This document shows positions 40,953-51,883 of a stretch of 64,000 nucleotides of DNA, piece by piece (the stretch's first letter is position 1; each line of letters opens with the position of its first letter). The notes under the pieces were generated by a model. The model was not told where the DNA came from and ran no database searches. It saw only the letters and a program-made list of their open reading frames with translations. Made by a program: the position numbers and the translations under genes. The DNA lies in assembly GCA_002937505.1 (NCBI GenBank), contig PTJY01000001.1, positions 310,001-374,000 of the forward strand, in the 5' to 3' direction. This stretch comes from Alphaproteobacteria bacterium MarineAlpha12_Bin1. GTDB taxonomy: Bacteria; Pseudomonadota; Alphaproteobacteria; UBA6615.

Positions 40953-43900
40953 TTAACTCCACTTACTCTTTTTCTCCCACACCGCAACACTAATTGACAT
41001 CATGGGTGGAACAACAGCTAGTGTAAGTACAGCAGATAACGCCAGTCCTCCAACGACAACAGAGCCCAGACCACGGTACAACTCAGAGCCTGCTCCTGGA
41101 AAAACCACCAAAGGCAGCATACCAAAGACCGATGTTAAGGTTGACATAAAAATAGGCCTAATCCTGTTTCGTGTAGCCAGAGTTATGGCCTCGTCTGCCG
41201 ACATTCCCTGTTTGCGAATATGTAATAAGGTTTGATGAACCAGTAGTATCGCATTGTTTACGACTATACCAATTAGAATGACAAAACCTAACATGGTCAA
41301 CATATCCAGTGGCTGAAAAACCGATTTATTTAATAGGGCTAAGCCAGCCAACCCTCCAGCTGCCGCTATGGGCACAGATAACAAAATTATCAAGGGATAC
41401 ACAAAACTCTCGAACAAAATGGCCATTACTAAATAAACTATAACTACTGCTAGAAGTAGGTCGATGACAATCTCATTCCAAGTTTCTGTTAACTTATCAG
41501 CCGTACCACTAACCCTAAAACGAACCCCTTCAGGCATCCCAGCCACCTCAATAGGTTTAATTACCTGACCTCTAATTAGCTCAATAGCTTTTTGCAAAGG
41601 CATAGAATCTGAAGGAGTCACTCTCAATGTCATAGTTCTAACTCGTTCTGAGCGGCGAATTTCGGTTGGACCGCTTGTTACTGTTACCTTTGCAAGGCTA
41701 TCTACAGGTATTAAACGACCTTCACGTGTTACCATGGGCAAAGAACCAATTTCTTGCGTAGCGTTAATTTGATCGAGTTCGCCCATAAGCGTCAGATCGA
41801 TTCTTTTCCCATCTACGGTAATCTCAGAAACTCTTAACCCGTCATTAAAAGCATCTATAGATTGACCCAGTTCCTGCGCAGTTAGACCATTGTCTGCAAG
41901 AGCAATTGGATCTGGTTCTACCCTTATCTCAGGTGCCCCTAGTGTTAGGCTTGGCAGCGGACGTGTTCGGTGTCCATCTTTAGGAGGCAACAGTTGCATT
42001 AACTTAAAAAAAGCCCTTTTTCCTACTTCATAAATAAGAGGTAGCTCAGGCCCAGACACGTCAATATCTACCGCACGCCCTCCTCCTACCGAACGACCAA
42101 ATAATGAAGGTTGAAAGACAAATGCAAATGTTCCAGGCTCTTGAAATGCTGCCTTCTGCATAATTGGGATGAGATCCCTCACACGAGTTGAGTCTTGCGC
42201 TGTTCCACCAATGAAAGCTCTGCCATTAAAATCAACTCGTATAAAACGCTGGAATGTTGGAGAATCATCTTTTACATCTGTTTCTTTGACTTCAGTTACC
42301 CAATTTTCACGAGTTCTATTTGCGATATTTTCTGTGAGCTTACTCACTGTGTCTAGGTTATATCCTGCAGGCGGCTGAACAAAACCAAACACAAAGTTCC
42401 GATTTCCAGTCGGCAAATAATCTAGCTTTGGTAAAAATAAAATTGTTGAAGCAATAGAAAGACCAGTAATTAGAACAACAACTCCAATGGCAGAGATTTT
42501 TGATTTTACAACCAGTCGAGTAAAAAATATCCAGAACCTGGTAAACCCGCTTGCAAAATGATCAAGCACAGGGATTCTGAGAGATTCACTCTCACTGTAG
42601 CTTTTAACTAAAAGTCGATTTGATAAAGCGGGTATTAAGGAAATTGAGACTATAAGGGAAAGAAGCACCGACACAGATATTGCAACTGCAATATCACGAA
42701 AAAGTTGTCCTACCTCCAGATCCATTAAAAGGATTGGAATAAAAACCATAGCTGTCGTCAGAGCGGAAACTAGTACAGCTGGCCAAACTTCAATTGCCCC
42801 TTGATAAGCTGCTTCGGAACGAGAAAGTCCACCCTGCCTAAGTCGAAAAATATTTTCGAGAACAACTATAGCTGCATCAACAACCATACCCACTGCAAAA
42901 GCAATACCTGCTAAGCTAATCACATTTAGTGAGCGGCCCAACAAAGCCATAGCAACAAATGAGCCGATTACAGACACGGGGATAGCTAAAGAAATAACAA
43001 GGGTTGGGCGCCATGATCTTAAAAATAAGAGTAATACGACTGCAGCTAATACTCCGCCAACAAATATATTCTGCTGAACCAATCTAATTGCAGAGTTAAT
43101 ATAAACTGTTTCATCATATACATTTCGTACCTTCAACCCCACATCATTTAGGACTCCCTCACCTAACTCTTTTACCGCAACATGCACTTTAGACATTGTT
43201 TCTAAAACGTTCGCGCCTTGAGAACGGGTCATGTTAAAAGCCATAGCTCTCTCGTCAAAGTTATGAGCTATAGCACGCGCTTTTTTATATGACAGGTAAA
43301 CCTGAGCTACATCACCAACAGTTACTCTGCCTATTCTTTCTTTGCCTGATATGTACTCGGAACGAAGGACTATATTACGCACCTGATCGGGCCTATTTAA
43401 ATCTCCTTCAGTGCGCACAACATAGCTTCGTTTACCCTCTTCAACATTTCCCCCAGATATGGAGGCATTTTCTGCCCTAACACGTTTTAAAACATCCAAA
43501 ACAGTCAGACGATATTGTGCTAATCTTTGTGCATCAACAACAATTCTTAATTCACGCTTAGTTTCTCCATAAATATTAACAGCAGATATGCCTTCAATAC
43601 GTTCGATTCTCTCCTGAACAACATCTTCTAAAAAATCACCATAGGTTATCATATCACGATCGTTCCCTGGCTTTCGTGTAAGCAAAAACCAGGCTATGGC
43701 ATTGTCATCGGTGCCTGATGTTCTCAATAGAGGCTCATTCGCCTCTGCAGGATACCCTGTGACACGATCAAGCCGATTAGCGACCAACAAAAGAGCTTTG
43801 TCCATATTCTGACTGGGGGCAAATTCTAAAGTAACTTCAGCTCTCCCAGTTCTGCTTCGACTTTGCATTGAGCGAATGCCCTCGAGTCCCTTTAGCACTT

Positions 43901-44105
43901 CTTCTTGACGATTAACTATCTCACGCTCAACCTCTGCCGGAGCAGATCCTGGCCAGAAAGTTTGCACAATTATCACCGGTTGACGCACATCAGGAGCCAT
44001 CTGTATTGGTATACGTTGTAAGGCCACATAACCAAACAAAACCACCATCAACACAACCGCGACTATCGCTACCGGACGATTAATAGAGAAAGAAATGAGA
44101 TTCAT
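40953..44105 (-). CDS. RND-superfamily efflux pump, inner-membrane subunit
   Basis: 1050 residues, the normal size for AcrB/CusA-type pumps, with 12 membrane segments and two large periplasmic loops. TM4 reads VVDAAIVVLEN: one proton-relay Asp where drug pumps of the AcrB type have two in a row (VDDAIV). A single Asp followed by Ala is otherwise known in heavy-metal pumps, but the methionine relay of CusA is not evident. TM10 contains GIVVNNAILLV. AGGAC precedes the ATG. The adaptor gene lies 30 bases upstream in the same operon; no outer-membrane channel is adjacent. Confidence 0.94.
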   Translation of the reverse strand: MNLISFSINRPVAIVAVVLMVVLFGYVALQRIPIQMAPDVRQPVIIVQTFWPGSAPAEVEREIVNRQEEVLKGLEGIRSMQSRSRTGRAEVTLEFAPSQNMDKALLLVANRLDRVTGYPAEANEPLLRTSGTDDNAIAWFLLTRKPGNDRDMITYGDFLEDVVQERIERIEGISAVNIYGETKRELRIVVDAQRLAQYRLTVLDVLKRVRAENASISGGNVEEGKRSYVVRTEGDLNRPDQVRNIVLRSEYISGKERIGRVTVGDVAQVYLSYKKARAIAHNFDERAMAFNMTRSQGANVLETMSKVHVAVKELGEGVLNDVGLKVRNVYDETVYINSAIRLVQQNIFVGGVLAAVVLLLFLRSWRPTLVISLAIPVSVIGSFVAMALLGRSLNVISLAGIAFAVGMVVDAAIVVLENIFRLRQGGLSRSEAAYQGAIEVWPAVLVSALTTAMVFIPILLMDLEVGQLFRDIAVAISVSVLLSLIVSISLIPALSNRLLVKSYSESESLRIPVLDHFASGFTRFWIFFTRLVVKSKISAIGVVVLITGLSIASTILFLPKLDYLPTGNRNFVFGFVQPPAGYNLDTVSKLTENIANRTRENWVTEVKETDVKDDSPTFQRFIRVDFNGRAFIGGTAQDSTRVRDLIPIMQKAAFQEPGTFAFVFQPSLFGRSVGGGRAVDIDVSGPELPLIYEVGKRAFFKLMQLLPPKDGHRTRPLPSLTLGAPEIRVEPDPIALADNGLTAQELGQSIDAFNDGLRVSEITVDGKRIDLTLMGELDQINATQEIGSLPMVTREGRLIPVDSLAKVTVTSGPTEIRRSERVRTMTLRVTPSDSMPLQKAIELIRGQVIKPIEVAGMPEGVRFRVSGTADKLTETWNEIVIDLLLAVVIVYLVMAILFESFVYPLIILLSVPIAAAGGLAGLALLNKSVFQPLDMLTMLGFVILIGIVVNNAILLVHQTLLHIRKQGMSADEAITLATRNRIRPIFMSTLTSVFGMLPLVVFPGAGSELYRGLGSVVVGGLALSAVLTLAVVPPMMSISVAVWEKKSKWS

Positions 44106-44135: not shown

Positions 44136-45470
44136 TTAATCACTTGATAATCTAACACTTTGCCCAGGGCGAAGATTCTCATTTCCTCTTATAACCACAG
44201 AGTCTCCCAGCTTTAAACCAGACAAAACAACAAAACGATTACCAATCGACTGACCAAGTTTCACTGTTTTAGGAATACTCTGCTGGTTTCTGACCAAAAA
44301 GACCTTATTGACTCCGTCACGTTGAAGAACTGCGTCCTTAGATACAGTTATGACCTTAGAACCTCTTCCAATTGGTACGTTCAAAGTAACATTCTGATTA
44401 GCAGCTAACGATAAATTCAAAGAAGAAAAGTCTGGTTTAAATCTTACCATTCGCGTTCTAGTTCTAGCGTTTTCGTCAGGTATAACTGCATGTACTGATG
44501 CTTTATGAAAATCTTCCCCATTGAGAGTTAATTGTAGGGTGTAACCAGGTTTAAGTTTACCTAGCTTTGCATGAGGAACTTCAGCTTCAACCATAACGCT
44601 TTTATCATTAATTAAACCCACAACAGGGTTACCTATTTTCAAGAATGCCCCAACCTCGGTATATTTTGTACTTACTACACCAGGATAAGGGGAACGTATC
44701 TGACTGTCTTTTAGATTAATTATTGAACGTTTTAACTGTGCTTGAGCCTGAAGTAATTGTGCCGCTGTTTCACCCACTTTACTTGTTTGTTTTACAACCT
44801 CTTGAATAACCTCTAAATACTTTGCCTGAGAGAAAGAAGATGACTTTCGAATAACTTTTAATCGATTTAGCTCAAGATTGCGTTTCTCTAAATCTGCTTT
44901 TGCACTATCAAGTCTGGCAATTTGCTGGGAAACAATAGCTTCATTTCGATCACGTTCAACTAATAAAATTTCAGTATCCAATTCAGCCAATAATTGACCC
45001 GTTTTAACTCGGTCTCCAACTCCAACATAAATCTTTTTTACAGGACCGCTAATCCGTGTTGCTACAGGCCCAAACTCATTAGACACGACACGGCCTAGAA
45101 CTGGTACAGTTTGGGTCGTAACCTCCTCAATTACTGCATCAACAACTACATTAGCTTTTGGACCACCTCTATTTTTTTTCTTTCCGGCACCACCACGAAA
45201 AAAATTGAATAGCTCCGTGCCATTAAGGGAACCACTTTTATCCTTATCAATAACATCGAAGTTTGAGCTTACTGGCCCCCTAGCTTCACTGCGCTCAATT
45301 AAATTATTATTGTTCTTATCTAAATTTTTTGCCATTCCAGACAATTTTCTAATTTCCTGGGCATGTAAAACAGGGGTGTCATTTAAAACAGATTCAGAAA
45401 CGAAAAGAATTAAAAAGCTGGTGAAAATGATTCCAATTTTAATAAATAATGTTTTCAATTTTTTTCTCAA
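44136..45470 (-). CDS. RND periplasmic adaptor with N-terminal EF-hand pair
   Basis: 444 residues from a TTG, about 60-80 more than usual. The order is signal segment (residues 8-37, ending VLHA), two EF-hand calcium loops (D51-E62 and D75-E86, with acidic or polar ligands at positions 1, 3, 5, 9 and 12), a basic glycine-rich linker (GGAGKKKNRGG), then the biotinyl-lipoyl half, helical hairpin, second lipoyl half and beta-barrel of an RND membrane fusion protein. It is co-transcribed with the pump. Calcium binding in the periplasm is inferred from the loops. The weak start context leaves the exact N-terminus open. Confidence 0.88.
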   Translation of the reverse strand: MRKKLKTLFIKIGIIFTSFLILFVSESVLNDTPVLHAQEIRKLSGMAKNLDKNNNNLIERSEARGPVSSNFDVIDKDKSGSLNGTELFNFFRGGAGKKKNRGGPKANVVVDAVIEEVTTQTVPVLGRVVSNEFGPVATRISGPVKKIYVGVGDRVKTGQLLAELDTEILLVERDRNEAIVSQQIARLDSAKADLEKRNLELNRLKVIRKSSSFSQAKYLEVIQEVVKQTSKVGETAAQLLQAQAQLKRSIINLKDSQIRSPYPGVVSTKYTEVGAFLKIGNPVVGLINDKSVMVEAEVPHAKLGKLKPGYTLQLTLNGEDFHKASVHAVIPDENARTRTRMVRFKPDFSSLNLSLAANQNVTLNVPIGRGSKVITVSKDAVLQRDGVNKVFLVRNQQSIPKTVKLGQSIGNRFVVLSGLKLGDSVVIRGNENLRPGQSVRLSSD

Positions 45471-45663: not shown

Positions 45664-46596
45664 ATGACTACAATTTTATATACGCACCCAGCCTGTCTAG
45701 ATCACGACACCTCACCTAACCATCCAGAATCGGCAAATCGATTAAGAAAAATTCTGGAGGCTTTAGAAAGCCCAAAATTTGATAGTCTTATCCGACAGGA
45801 AGCTCCCCTTGCTACCCTAGAACAAATACAAGCTATACATCCTAAGGAACATGTAAACTCTATTTTTTCTAAAATCCCTTCTTCTGGCTACTGCAAAATT
45901 GACGCAGACACTATTGTATCAATGGATTCTAAGGAAGCGGCTTTAAGATCTGCAGGCGCTGTGATTGCAGCAGTTGATTCAGTAATGTCCAAAGAGGCTA
46001 ATAACGCCTTTTGCGCCATAAGACCACCCGGGCACCATGCAGAGACTAATCGATCTATGGGTTTTTGCTTATTCAATAATATAGCGCTTGGTGCAGAACA
46101 TGTCATGAAAACTTATGGGCTGAAAAAAATAGCAGTAATTGACTTTGATGTTCATCATGGCAATGGAACTCAAGAAATATTTATGAAAAATCCGAACCTG
46201 TTTTATGCTTCAACACACCAATCCCCACTTTATCCAGGAACAGGTAACGTTACTGAAATAGGACCTAATAAAAATATAATTAATTGCCCGCTACCCCCTG
46301 GCTCGGGCTCTGAGGAATTTAGAGAGGCTATGTACTCATTAATTTTACCATCGTTAATTGAGTTTGCCCCTCAGTTTCTTTTTATCTCAGCTGGATTCGA
46401 TGCACATATCAAAGATCCGTTAGCGCAGATGGAATTAACTAATGAAGATTTTGCTTGGATCACAGAAAAGTTATGTGAAGTATCTGAACAATGTTGTTTT
46501 GGTCGAATAGTTTCCGCGCTAGAGGGTGGATATGATTTAAACGCTTTAGCAGAGGCAACAGCTGAACATGTGGAGACCTTGATGGCGCTATCTTAA
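45664..46596 (+). CDS. Histone deacetylase-family (acetylpolyamine amidohydrolase-like) protein
   Basis: 310 residues, arginase/deacetylase fold. The active-site pair is in RPPGHHAE, zinc ligands in DFDVHHGNG and SAGFDAH, and a late Gly-rich LEGGYDL is the tyrosine-loop region. Bacterial members deacetylate small substrates such as acetylpolyamines or acetoin-related proteins; the target here is unknown. A family member next to xseB-ispA-dxs is a recurrent alphaproteobacterial arrangement. Divergent from the RND operon. Confidence 0.92.
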   Translation: MTTILYTHPACLDHDTSPNHPESANRLRKILEALESPKFDSLIRQEAPLATLEQIQAIHPKEHVNSIFSKIPSSGYCKIDADTIVSMDSKEAALRSAGAVIAAVDSVMSKEANNAFCAIRPPGHHAETNRSMGFCLFNNIALGAEHVMKTYGLKKIAVIDFDVHHGNGTQEIFMKNPNLFYASTHQSPLYPGTGNVTEIGPNKNIINCPLPPGSGSEEFREAMYSLILPSLIEFAPQFLFISAGFDAHIKDPLAQMELTNEDFAWITEKLCEVSEQCCFGRIVSALEGGYDLNALAEATAEHVETLMALS

Positions 46597-46651
46597 GCTT
46601 GACCCTAAACCTGACAAAGATAAACTCATCTAAGACAAAATGGAGAGCTCA

Positions 46652-46915
46652 ATGACGGCTAGTAAGAAAAATAAAGAAATACCTGAAGAAATTTCCTCTC
46701 TGTCTTTTGAGAAGGCTCTTAGTCAACTTGAAGACATAGTCAGACAACTAGAGGGAGGAGAAAAGGGTCTGGAAGAGGCTTTGGAAGCATATGAGAAAGG
46801 CGCTTTACTGAAAGAACATTGTGAGGACAAGCTTAAAAAAGCTCAATTGAGGGTAGAAAAAATATCTTTATCCTCTAACGGGGAACCAAAATTAAGCCCA
46901 GTTGAAGTAGACTAA
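46652..46915 (+). CDS. xseB: Exodeoxyribonuclease VII small subunit
   Basis: 87 residues from the ATG at 46652, which has GGAGAG six bases upstream; an ATG four codons earlier sits on that ribosome-binding site and is unlikely to be used. The XseB signature FEKALSQLEDIVRQLEGGE is followed by LEEALEAYEKGALL and a helical tail. It binds XseA to form exonuclease VII; xseA is not in the window. ispA follows after six bases. Confidence 0.95.
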   Translation: MTASKKNKEIPEEISSLSFEKALSQLEDIVRQLEGGEKGLEEALEAYEKGALLKEHCEDKLKKAQLRVEKISLSSNGEPKLSPVEVD

Positions 46916-46921
46916 GCTGAA

Positions 46922-47812
46922 ATGGCATCTTATCCACCTAGTGCAATCACAAAGGTTGCGTCTTCAGTTGATAAAGTTTTAGAAACAGTAATGACTCCGT
47001 CAGATGCAGTAGCCTCGGAACTTTGGGAAGCAATGCGATATGCCTCACTATCTGGTGGCAAGAGGTTACGCCCATTTTTTGTCGTGCAGTTTGCCTCATT
47101 ATGTGGAGTTGAACAGAATCAATCTTTAAGAACTGCTGCAGCCGTTGAAATGATTCATTCATACTCTCTTGTGCACGACGACTTACCAGCAATGGATGAC
47201 GATGATATTAGACGAGGAAGACCCACCGTGCATAAGAAGTATGATGAAGCGACCGCGATACTTACTGGGGATGCCCTTCAATCTCTCGCTTTTGAGTTAC
47301 TATCTGACCCAATGACTCATCCCTCTCCAACTGTAAGGTGTGAACTAATATATGGCTTAGCTAAAGCCAGTGGAGGGAAAGGAATGGCTGGAGGCCAAAT
47401 GCTTGACCTTAATGCACATAAAAAAGACTGGGATATAAAACTCGTAAATGACCTGCAATTAATGAAGACTGCTGCATTATTCGGTTTCGCCTGCGAAGCA
47501 GGAGCCATTCTTGGAGAATCCTCAGCCGAGGAGAAAAATAATCTCAAAAATTTTGGTATTAATTTTGGCCTAGCCTTTCAAATCACTGATGATTTACTAG
47601 ATATAACAGGGAGTGAACATCTAGCAGGTAAAGCTTTGGGAAAAGATGAGGCAAAAGGAAAGGCGACTTTTGTAGAGCTAGATGGAATTGATGGAGCACT
47701 TAAAAATGCTGCGAAATTTTGCCACAACGCTATGGAAATATTAGACTTATATGGCGATAATGCAGAAGTATTACGTAATGTTGTGCGTGGGGTTATTGGT
47801 CGCCAAATGTAA
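46922..47812 (+). CDS. ispA: Farnesyl diphosphate synthase (geranyltranstransferase)
   Basis: 296 residues. The first aspartate-rich motif DDLPAMDDDD starts at D86 and the second is DDLLD within FQITDDLLD. LSGGKRLRP near residue 44 binds diphosphate. It makes farnesyl diphosphate for quinones, undecaprenyl carriers and hopanoids. Six bases after xseB and ahead of dxs, the usual proteobacterial isoprenoid cluster. Confidence 0.96.
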   Translation: MASYPPSAITKVASSVDKVLETVMTPSDAVASELWEAMRYASLSGGKRLRPFFVVQFASLCGVEQNQSLRTAAAVEMIHSYSLVHDDLPAMDDDDIRRGRPTVHKKYDEATAILTGDALQSLAFELLSDPMTHPSPTVRCELIYGLAKASGGKGMAGGQMLDLNAHKKDWDIKLVNDLQLMKTAALFGFACEAGAILGESSAEEKNNLKNFGINFGLAFQITDDLLDITGSEHLAGKALGKDEAKGKATFVELDGIDGALKNAAKFCHNAMEILDLYGDNAEVLRNVVRGVIGRQM

Positions 47813-47813
47813 A

Positions 47814-47829
47814 ATGGGCCAAAGCCCAT
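47814..47829 (+). other. GC-rich hairpin between ispA and dxs
   Basis: ATGGGC, loop CAAA, GCCCAT: a perfect 6-base stem beginning one base after the ispA stop. No T-run follows, so it is not an ordinary intrinsic terminator. It ends nine bases before the AGGA that precedes dxs, and may protect the upstream mRNA or modulate dxs translation. Confidence 0.4.
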
Positions 47830-47848
47830 AATCATATAGGATAGGCTT

Positions 47849-49771
47849 TTGGACAACAAAATAAGAACGCCACTCTTAGACTCGGTGAACACACCATCCG
47901 ACTTGAAAAAACTAAAGCCTGAAGAGTTAAAACAGGTTGCAGATGAACTACGCCAAGAAACAATAGATGCTGTTTCTATTACTGGCGGCCATTTAGGAGC
48001 AGGACTTGGTGTAGTTGAACTAACCGTTGTCTTACACTATGTTTTCAATACTCCGGTTGATAGACTCATTTGGGATGTCAGCCATCAAACGTATCCCCAC
48101 AAAATAATTACGGGACGCCGCAACAAAATCCGTACTCTTCGTCAAGGGGGAGGACTTTCCGGTTTTACTCGTAGAATAGAAAGTGAGTTTGACCCTTTTG
48201 GCGCTGCACATAGTTCAACCTCTATTTCTGCAGGTTTGGGGATGGCAATAGCTAGAGATTTATCTGGTGCTTCTAACAACGTAATTAGTGTAATTGGGGA
48301 CGGAGCAATGAGCGCTGGCATGGCATATGAGGCAATGAACAATGCCGGTTCAATGAACAGTCGACTGGTTGTAGTGTTAAATGATAACGATATGTCGATT
48401 GCGCCTGCAGTGGGGGCGTTTAGCGCATACCTATCGCGCCTGATCTCGTCTAAGGGATATCGATCTCTTCGAAAAGCCGCCAAAGATGTCGCTAATCATC
48501 TTCCAAAAGGACTAGAGCAAGTTGCACGCCGAGCTGAAGAATACGCTCGAGGTTTTGTAACTGGTGGAACTTTATTCGAAGAGATGGGTTTCTATTATAT
48601 AGGACCTATTGATGGACATAATATTGACCACCTATTACCCGTATTTCGTAATGTACGTGATAGCAAACAAACTGGTCCAGTCCTAGTTCATGTAGTAACA
48701 CAAAAGGGAAAAGGTTTTGAGTCAGACCGAGGCGCAGGAGAAAAATACCATAGCGTCAACAAATTTGACCTTGTAACAGGCACACAGGCAAAAGCACAAC
48801 CTAAAGCTCCTAGTTACACAAGTGTTTTTTCAGACTGTTTAATAAAAGAGGCGGAGTCTGATGAAAAAATTATTGCTATTACTGCAGCAATGCCCTCAGG
48901 AACCGGTCTGGATAAATTTAAAGAGAGATTCCCTGATAGGTGTTTTGATGTTGGCATTGCAGAACAACATGCAGTAACTTTTTCAGCTGGTTTAGCGGCC
49001 GAGGGATATAAGCCCTTCGCAACTATATACTCAACTTTTTTGCAACGAGCTTATGACCAAATTATACATGATGTCGCCATACAAGAGCTCCCTGTAAGAT
49101 TTGCGATTGATCGTGCTGGACTAGTTGGGGCTGATGGCGCAACTCATCATGGATCATTTGACATTACATACCTGGGATGCCTGCCTGGGTTTGTGTTAAT
49201 GGCTCCAGCAGATGAGCTAGAACTAATGAACATGATCGCAACTGCGGTGAGTATAGATGATAGGCCTTCAGCATTTAGATATCCGAGGGGAGAAGGACAA
49301 GGTGTTAGCTTACCCTCAAAAGGTGAGGTTTTAGAAATTGGAAAAGGTAGAATAATTCGTGAGGGTACTGCCGTGGCTATCTTGTCCTATGGAGCTAGGC
49401 TATCCGAATGCCTCAAAGCAGCCAATGAATTAGCCTCTCGTGGACTATCTGTTACTGTAGCAGACGCTCGTTTTGCTAAACCGCTAGACTCGGAGCTATT
49501 ATATCAATTAGGTCGAGAGCATGAGGTTCTAATAACAGTTGAAGAAGGCTCAATCGGCGGCTTTGCAAGCCAGGTAATGACGTCTCTAGCAAATCAAAAT
49601 ATGCTGGGAGATGGATTAAAAATCAAACCTATAACCATACCAGATATTTTTATTGACCATGACACTCCTTCTAAACAATACTTACGTAGTGGTCTTGTAG
49701 CTACGAGTATAGTTAAAAATGCCCTGAATGCTTTAGGTCGTGACTACGAAGAACTCCCTGTTAGAGCTTGA
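47849..49771 (+). CDS. dxs: 1-deoxy-D-xylulose-5-phosphate synthase
   Basis: 640 residues from a TTG with AGGA seven bases upstream; the resulting N-terminus ([19 protein letters not shown]) fits the family. It joins pyruvate and glyceraldehyde-3-phosphate using thiamine diphosphate, the first step of the MEP isoprenoid pathway. [13 protein letters not shown], the ThDP motif [18 protein letters not shown] and the transketolase pyrimidine domain with [15 protein letters not shown] are clear. Confidence 0.97.
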
Positions 49772-49820
49772 TTTTTGAGAATAGATTCAGGACATAAATT
49801 GACACCTGAAGTTGAAGATC

Positions 49821-50588
49821 ATGAAAAAATTCACTCAAACGAGCAAACATCATATTAGAGTCGATTTGGCACTAGTAGAAAAAGGGCTCGCCAAAAACCG
49901 TAGTCGTGCACAGGCGTTAGTTCTTGCAGGAAAAGTATTTTCTGGAGAGCAAAGGATTAATAAGGCAGGCATGTTGATTCAAAAAGACATGCCCTTAGAA
50001 GTCAGAGGACAAGATCATCCCTGGGTAAGTCGGGGTGGAGTAAAACTTAACCATGCATTAAATCAATTTCAAATAAACGTAGATCATAAAATTTGTTTAG
50101 ACATTGGCTCTTCAACTGGGGGTTTTACTCAAGTTTTGTTGAGTCGTGGCGCCCTACGAGTCTATTCTGTAGATGTAGGTCATGGTCAACTAGATTGGAA
50201 ACTCCGAACTGATAATCGAGTTATTTTACTCGAAAAAACAAACGCACGTCATTTATCTATAAATGAAATTCCCGAGCAAATTGACTTAATCGTATGTGAT
50301 GCAAGCTTCATAGGGTTAGAGACTTTACTACCTTCTGCCTTAAGTCTTGCTTCTCCAAACGCTATATTATCCGCACTGATTAAACCCCAATTTGAAGCTG
50401 GAAAAGATCAAGTAGGCAAAGGAGGGATTGTCAAAAACCCAGATGTTCATGAAGCCGTCTGCAAACGAATCTCAAGTTGGATAAATAATTTACCCGAATG
50501 GAAATCGCTAAATATTATCGAAAGTCCTATAGCCGGAGCAGAAGGAAACAAAGAGTTTTTTATACATGCTGAACGCAAAAAAATTTGA
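49821..50588 (+). CDS. tlyA: TlyA-family rRNA methyltransferase (hemolysin A family)
   Basis: 255 residues from the ATG at 49821; a TTG three codons upstream is the alternative. The S4 RNA-binding domain (RVDLALVEKGLAKNRSRAQALV) is joined to an FtsJ-type methyltransferase with the SAM motif LDIGSSTGGFTQVLL. TlyA in mycobacteria makes 2'-O-methylcytidines in 16S and 23S rRNA. It follows dxs as in many Alphaproteobacteria and overlaps rlmD (TGATG). Confidence 0.92.
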   Translation: MKKFTQTSKHHIRVDLALVEKGLAKNRSRAQALVLAGKVFSGEQRINKAGMLIQKDMPLEVRGQDHPWVSRGGVKLNHALNQFQINVDHKICLDIGSSTGGFTQVLLSRGALRVYSVDVGHGQLDWKLRTDNRVILLEKTNARHLSINEIPEQIDLIVCDASFIGLETLLPSALSLASPNAILSALIKPQFEAGKDQVGKGGIVKNPDVHEAVCKRISSWINNLPEWKSLNIIESPIAGAEGNKEFFIHAERKKI

Positions 50589-51883
50589 TGAAAAACTACA
50601 AAGAATTAGAAACATCAATTACGCACCTTGGTGAAAAAGGAGATGGCATAGCCTTAACAACTGAAGGACAAGTTTTTGTTCCGATGACCTTGCCTGGCGA
50701 AAAAGTGCGCATCCGAATAGAAACGTCTGCTAAAAAAGGCAGAAAAATTGATTTACTAGAAATTATTGAAGAATCCAAACATCGCTTAGTCCCCCATTGT
50801 AAATATTTTGGTGCTTGCGGAGGTTGTGTCATCCAACATCTGTCCATTGAACCCTACCTTCAATGGAAACAAGCCATAATTGTAAAAGCTCTAAAGAATA
50901 AGAGAATTGATAGCGATTTAATTCAGCCTACAATAGCCACCCAGGCTAATGGCAGGCGTAGAACAGAGCTAACCGCCACTAAAACAAAAACTCTTAATAA
51001 TAAGCTGACCTTTGGTTACACTGCGCGCTCAACTCATAATGTCGTTGATATTACAGAATGCCCAATATTAACTTCCACATTAGATAGTATTATTCAGCCT
51101 CTTAGGATTCTAGTAGAAAAAATTCTGCAGCCAGGATCATCTTGTAAGATTATGCTTACCGAAACAGAGGTCGGAATCGATATGCTAATAAGCAGCAAAA
51201 ATGATCCCAATCCGCAACACTTAAGTGGTCTTTCTAACTTTGCTATAAACCACAATCTCGCTCGAGTGTCCTGGAGATCGGATAATAAAAGAACGGAGCC
51301 CATATACCAAGAAAGAGTTCCAACAGTAGATTTTGATGGAATTTCAGTCGTTCTTCCACCAGGTTCATTTTTACAGACTAGCGTTCAGTCTCAACGAATC
51401 ATAACCTCATTAGTTATTAAATACACCGGAGAAATAACACTACATAAGAAAGTAGCCGACCTGTTTTCAGGACTAGGTACTTTTACATTACCTCTTGCCA
51501 AAAGAGGTGCTCAAGTTCATTCAATTGATATTTCTGGAGAAACACTAGAAAACTTGTTAGCTGCAAGTGGAATGGCTGGTTTCAGTGGAAGGGTAACAAC
51601 TGAAAAACGTAACTTAATGAAACACCCTCTTTCGCCCGCAGAACTTGCCTTTTATGAGATAGTGATTTTTGATCCTCCGCGTGCAGGCGCAGAGGCGTTA
51701 GCAAAAAACTTAGCTGTTTCCAAAGTTCCAATAATTATTGCTGTTTCTTGTAATGCTAAAACTTTTGCTCGAGATGCAGAAATCCTTATATCGGGAGGAT
51801 ATGAAATGGTGGAGCTGACCCCTGTAGACCAATTTGTTTTTAGTAACCAAATTGAATTATTGGCTAGATTTCAGCATAAATAA
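50588..51883 (+). CDS. rlmD: 23S rRNA (uracil-5-)-methyltransferase, RlmD/RumA type
   Basis: 431 residues; the ATG overlaps the tlyA stop by one base. An N-terminal TRAM-like domain precedes the [4Fe-4S] cysteines C71, C77 and C80 plus a later Cys in ITECPIL, the mark that separates RlmD/RlmC from TrmA. The SAM motif is LFSGLGTFTLPLA and the catalytic Cys is in AVSCN. It methylates U1939 or a nearby uracil of 23S rRNA; choice between RlmD and RlmC is inferred. Confidence 0.9.
   Translation: MKNYKELETSITHLGEKGDGIALTTEGQVFVPMTLPGEKVRIRIETSAKKGRKIDLLEIIEESKHRLVPHCKYFGACGGCVIQHLSIEPYLQWKQAIIVKALKNKRIDSDLIQPTIATQANGRRRTELTATKTKTLNNKLTFGYTARSTHNVVDITECPILTSTLDSIIQPLRILVEKILQPGSSCKIMLTETEVGIDMLISSKNDPNPQHLSGLSNFAINHNLARVSWRSDNKRTEPIYQERVPTVDFDGISVVLPPGSFLQTSVQSQRIITSLVIKYTGEITLHKKVADLFSGLGTFTLPLAKRGAQVHSIDISGETLENLLAASGMAGFSGRVTTEKRNLMKHPLSPAELAFYEIVIFDPPRAGAEALAKNLAVSKVPIIIAVSCNAKTFARDAEILISGGYEMVELTPVDQFVFSNQIELLARFQHK

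Follow-up and report, generated by a model that had tools for sequence, protein, structure and literature searches.

The window, by which we mean the whole 64,000-nucleotide stretch of Alphaproteobacteria bacterium MarineAlpha12_Bin1 that was analysed, carries on its minus strand a two-gene operon that encodes a periplasmic adaptor of the resistance-nodulation-division (RND) type and its cognate permease, and the adaptor has a compact pair of EF-hand loops in front of its core. The features are as follows:

40953..44105, minus strand: cognate RND permease, 1050 aa (PF00873, E 1.7e-201)
44136..45470, minus strand: RND efflux periplasmic adaptor (membrane fusion protein), 444 aa, TTG start
45360..45470, minus strand: signal segment, adaptor residues 1–37 (...PVLHA/QEI), assigned from sequence
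45198..45344, minus strand: compact two-EF-hand unit, residues 43–91, assigned from conservation, dN/dS, and profile matches
45285..45320, minus strand: EF loop 1, residues 51–62, DKNNNNLIERSE
45249..45284, minus strand: inter-loop stretch of 12 residues (63–74, ARGPVSSNFDVI), presumed to be a shared short helix
45213..45248, minus strand: EF loop 2, residues 75–86, DKDKSGSLNGTE
45153..45197, minus strand: basic, glycine-rich linker, residues 92–106, length differing between relatives
44151..45152, minus strand: adaptor core (barrel-sandwich/lipoyl, hairpin, barrel), residues 107–440 (TIGR01730, PF16576, PF13437)

The open reading frame, strand, and coordinates given for the adaptor in the initial annotation are correct; its two EF loops (D51–E62 and D75–E86) are indeed placed after the signal segment and before the core, and the linker that follows them is basic and glycine rich as claimed. 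An in-frame stop is located three codons 5′ of the TTG start. A downstream start at M46 was considered and rejected because the protein would lose its signal segment and because relatives retain the upstream start, which in the closest relative is an ATG 5′ of the EF unit. The concern that related genomes might start downstream of the EF-hands is likewise allayed, as the start codon and signal peptide of the relatives lie upstream of their EF units. The core matches the TIGR01730 (RND_mfp) model over residues 110–440 with 153.8 bits (cut-off 94.9; E 5e-45). The presumed cleavage site, VLHA/QEI, contains no cysteine, and the same is true of the presumed site in adaptor orthologues that have no EF unit.

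The permease gene begins 30 bp downstream of the adaptor gene, and a permease homologue follows the adaptor at all loci examined, whether the adaptor has EF-hands or not. We saw no outer-membrane factor gene and no regulatory gene in the operon; the only OEP/TolC-type gene found in the genome is encoded on another contig, which also carries a second RND pump. By curated cut-offs neither protein is a member of a heavy-metal subfamily: the adaptor scores 111.6 bits against TIGR00999 (CzcB; cut-off 319.3), the permease scores 300.6 bits against TIGR00914 (CusA/CzcA; cut-off 701.45), and the permease reaches the cut-off of none of the RND permease models compared. The TM4 motif VGMVVDAAIVVLEN (residues 402–424) and the TM10 motif GIVVNNAILLVHQ (residues 938–960) of the permease are nearly invariant among alphaproteobacterial relatives. 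AcrB has two adjacent Asp and a Lys at the corresponding positions, so the proton relay of the permease may differ from that of AcrB. The neighbouring genes (window positions 45664–51883), which were named by eye, are deacetylase-like, xseB, ispA, dxs, tlyA, and rumA-like, and the order and sizes of these reading frames are the same in the closest relative (L024:885-5809) as far as that locus reaches.

Loop 2 of the window protein scores 21.5 bits against the Pfam EF-hand_6 model, under the gathering score of 25, and curated annotation would therefore miss this copy. Three relatives that contain two units pass several Pfam EF-hand models in the same chain as HlyD domains. To search beyond Pfam models, we used a profile built from 36 units with the genus of the window left out, which finds the adaptor frame among the 886 stop-to-stop frames of the window at E 2.3e-25, and a profile built only from units of a second alphaproteobacterial order, which matches the adaptor frame alone at E 3e-20; the second-best of the 886 frames has an E value of 0.1 or worse against these profiles. 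Comparison of the two closest genomes gives dN/dS values of 0.12 for the EF unit, 0.14 for the core, about 1 for the linker, and 0.82 for the signal segment, figures that are rough because they come from a single genome pair and short segments. Because of the cross-order match and the low dN/dS of the unit, we judge that the EF loops are not a chance resemblance, and by this comparison the unit is under purifying selection with a constraint like that of the core while the linker drifts.

Conservation of the loops was assessed in 18 aligned adaptors. In both loops the D at position 1 and the E at position 12 are identical in 18 of 18, and ligand-type residues are kept at positions 3, 5, and 9, so that all ligand positions of an EF-hand loop (1, 3, 5, 9, and 12) are suitably occupied; the loss of ligands among homologues that would have spoken against the initial annotation was not seen. 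Loop 1 has invariant D1, N3, and E12, and loop 2 has invariant D1, L8, G10, and E12. The affinity of loop 1 may be low, since its positions 3 and 5 are Asn and, in the window protein, position 6 is also Asn instead of Gly.

Adaptors of this type were identified at E below 1e-100 in 52 of 385 sampled alphaproteobacterial genomes. The order to which the window belongs is represented by 24 genomes from one family, 21 of which encode the adaptor, and the EF unit is present in 19 of these 21 (in G007 within a broken frame) and absent from the adaptors of G010 and G012. The second order has the unit in 7 of 10 genomes. Outside these two carrier families the unit was found in none of about 45 alphaproteobacterial adaptor orthologues, of which about 30 were read directly and the others were judged from the start of the match, and at E 1e-8 no other gene in the 385 genomes contains a unit of this type. 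A search of 398 sampled genomes elsewhere in the phylum detected no combination of EF-hands and adaptor, with a query specific to this adaptor family that could miss independent EF-hand fusions to other adaptor families, and no relative was found among viral contigs. In a tree of concatenated adaptor and permease sequences, the EF-bearing adaptors of both orders together with that of G010 form one clade (support 0.96). The EF unit is thus, as far as this sampling extends, limited to one adaptor clade, and because of this grouping one gain and one loss would be the simplest history. Since G010 is a member of the clade and has no unit, the unit is not essential to this type of pump. Two units, or four EF-hands, are present in 15 of 25 intact carriers, and the tendency of units within one genome to group together suggests repeated duplication or homogenisation.

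Several other sequences were noted in the course of these searches. A metallo-beta-lactamase-fold protein in G009 (L099:1087-2130) has a compact EF-hand pair inserted in its domain and is a weaker relative of the unit. Adaptors of another family (f104; L070, L071, and L072) have an Arg/Gly-rich stretch, for example KGKRRGGRRGRRGRGG, at the place of the EF unit. The genome of the window also has a gene for a distinct 157-aa protein (L134:1324-1797) that begins with a signal-like segment and contains several EF-hands, and a 340-aa protein (L132:1378-2400) combines EF-hand-like loops with sequence that by eye looks MORN- and Sel1-like.

The two loops are separated by 12 residues in the window protein and in 38 of 40 units; this short spacing and the frequent doubling of the unit go beyond what the initial annotation noted. 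A separation of 12–13 residues between adjacent EF-hands is regarded as a hallmark of lanmodulin, whereas calcium-responsive EF-hand proteins have about 25. The short separation leads to a bundle of three helices with EF2–EF3 and EF1–EF4 pairs instead of an EF1–EF2 pair; Hans-lanmodulin undergoes metal-dependent dimerisation (PMC10232371). Among solved structures the unit best matches two lanmodulin chains, with an alignment that spans both loops; entry 8fns, although titled only "EF-hand domain-containing protein," gives the same alignment as 6mi5 across the displayed stretch. Position 2 of the loops is K, A, T, S, or another residue but never the P of lanmodulin. The loop-end glutamates of EfhP from Pseudomonas aeruginosa are 27 residues apart (PMC9132961), which suggests that proteins other than lanmodulins can also have compact spacing.

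The explanation that we tentatively favour, at somewhat less than an even chance, is that the unit is constitutively loaded with Ca2+ and helps to assemble or brace the adaptor ring, so that calcium would serve the pump as a structural cofactor and not as a signal. In a two-gene RND operon that is ordinary in other respects, the mature adaptor would have gained at its N-terminus an EF unit on a flexible, glycine-rich leash. We infer that this unit is exported to the periplasm, where it would bind Ca2+ constitutively and fold, and that it would strengthen adaptor–adaptor or adaptor–permease assembly near the inner membrane. The short distance between the two loops of a unit should preclude calmodulin-like pairing of one with the other, so each unit would need a partner unit, either the tandem copy in relatives or that of a neighbouring protomer in single-unit proteins such as the window adaptor. 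RND adaptors are reported to function on the permease as trimers of dimers (PMC4446572), so a second unit would always be near; pairing between protomers is proposed by analogy. It is possible, though we hold this with less confidence, that metal-filled lanmodulin-type units pair between protomers or within tandem chains and so confer calcium-dependent assembly on a pump outside the heavy-metal subfamilies. Structure prediction was poor for the full-length adaptor (pLDDT 42) and returned no EF fold for the isolated unit (pLDDT 70; pTM 0.30), owing to an alignment of just two sequences, the window protein and one relative.

Sea water contains calcium at about 10 mM. Micromolar sites would be permanently full at this concentration, and a structural or assembly role therefore fits better than that of a sensor. 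The periplasmic Ca2+ level follows or exceeds that outside the cell, and a bacterial EF-hand protein has been found to bind Ca2+ with a Kd of about 14 uM (PMC9132961). The initial annotation proposed a calcium sensor or gate, in which the EF-hands fill and empty as periplasmic Ca2+ changes and thereby switch the pump on or off. Precedents are calcium-sensing EF-hand proteins, among them EfhP of P. aeruginosa (PMC9132961), and the metal-RND adaptor CusB, which detects metal and triggers assembly of its pump (PMC13328181). However, the operon includes no regulatory gene. In addition, the nearly constant sea-water calcium of roughly 10 mM would saturate sites of micromolar affinity. The EF pair itself stands as real, conserved, and unusual for RND adaptors, whereas sensing or gating by sites that are expected to be saturated is, in our view, unlikely.

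We consider it slightly less likely again that the unit acts in the manner of a dockerin and grips the permease, the outer-membrane factor, or peptidoglycan in a Ca2+-dependent way. The flexible linker and the N-terminal position of the unit near the membrane would suit such docking, and another tether would be useful to an adaptor that shows no lipid-anchor cysteine, but no partner gene was found, and, as the unit-less orthologues also show no cysteine at the presumed cleavage site, the pump type needs no tether of that kind.

A neutral folded appendage that merely protects the N-terminus or helps export would agree with the absence of the unit from G010 and with its variable copy number, but it is difficult to reconcile with invariant ligands and a dN/dS of 0.12 and is improbable. 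Just as poorly placed, or marginally worse, is hand-over of a metal substrate as in CusB and SilB, in which the EF unit would capture the metal and pass it to the permease. In some heavy-metal adaptors, transfer involves metal-binding extensions at the N- or C-terminus (PMC4446572). Against such a function in the window protein, the adaptor and permease score far under the CzcB and CusA/CzcA cut-offs, the EF loops are oxygen-ligand sites, and the export of periplasmic calcium into sea water makes little sense. Finally, that the unit is half of a lanmodulin and the pump a part of lanthanide handling is very improbable, as the identical 12-residue spacing and the best solved match are offset by the missing Pro at loop position 2, by the few acidic ligands in loop 1, and by the occurrence of the order's strong quinoprotein alcohol dehydrogenase hits in G012 only (several of them, at L110), whose adaptor has no EF unit, and in none of the carriers.

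A literature search for EF-hand RND adaptors yielded nothing relevant, and the adaptor and tripartite-pump reviews searched for such features describe neither an EF-hand nor a calcium site in any RND adaptor; by these reviews, the statement that ordinary adaptors lack EF-hands holds and the pair is unusual. Metal-binding adaptor extensions are reported in the same reviews solely for heavy-metal pumps, whereas here a conserved and often duplicated EF-hand unit is found on a pump outside the heavy-metal subfamilies. Such a unit may couple assembly of the pump to calcium or to a different metal ion, and as a 67-residue module it makes the control or bracing of tripartite pump assembly by a common ion directly testable. 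It is also a natural EF unit with lanmodulin spacing in a non-lanthanide setting, which helps to ask what the short spacing is for.

Compared with known systems, the adaptor shares all core domains and the operon with an RND permease with the TIGR01730 adaptors, whose solved relatives include chain 6vej_P, MexJ, and MacA, and differs from them by the EF-hand unit or units between the signal segment and the core. Lanmodulin likewise has EF loops 12 residues apart and is periplasmic, as the EF unit of the adaptor would be, but lanmodulin is a protein of under 200 residues with four EF-hands, whereas the unit is fused to a 444-aa adaptor, has fewer acidic ligands, and occurs in no lanthanide context. 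Membership among the lanmodulins was accordingly rejected for the window protein, which departs from them in proline 2, stand-alone size, and its two rather than four loops, the proteins with four being fusions in all 15 of the 25 carriers concerned. EfhP of P. aeruginosa, a periplasmic calcium-binding protein, also has two EF-hands, but it is a stand-alone sensor outside any pump, whereas the EF unit of the window is part of an adaptor. The nearest functional parallels are CusB, with its N-terminal metal-binding region, and SilB, with its C-terminal CusF-like domain, which are also adaptors with a metal-binding extension at one end, built from methionine sites rather than from the oxygen-ligand EF-hands of the window adaptor.
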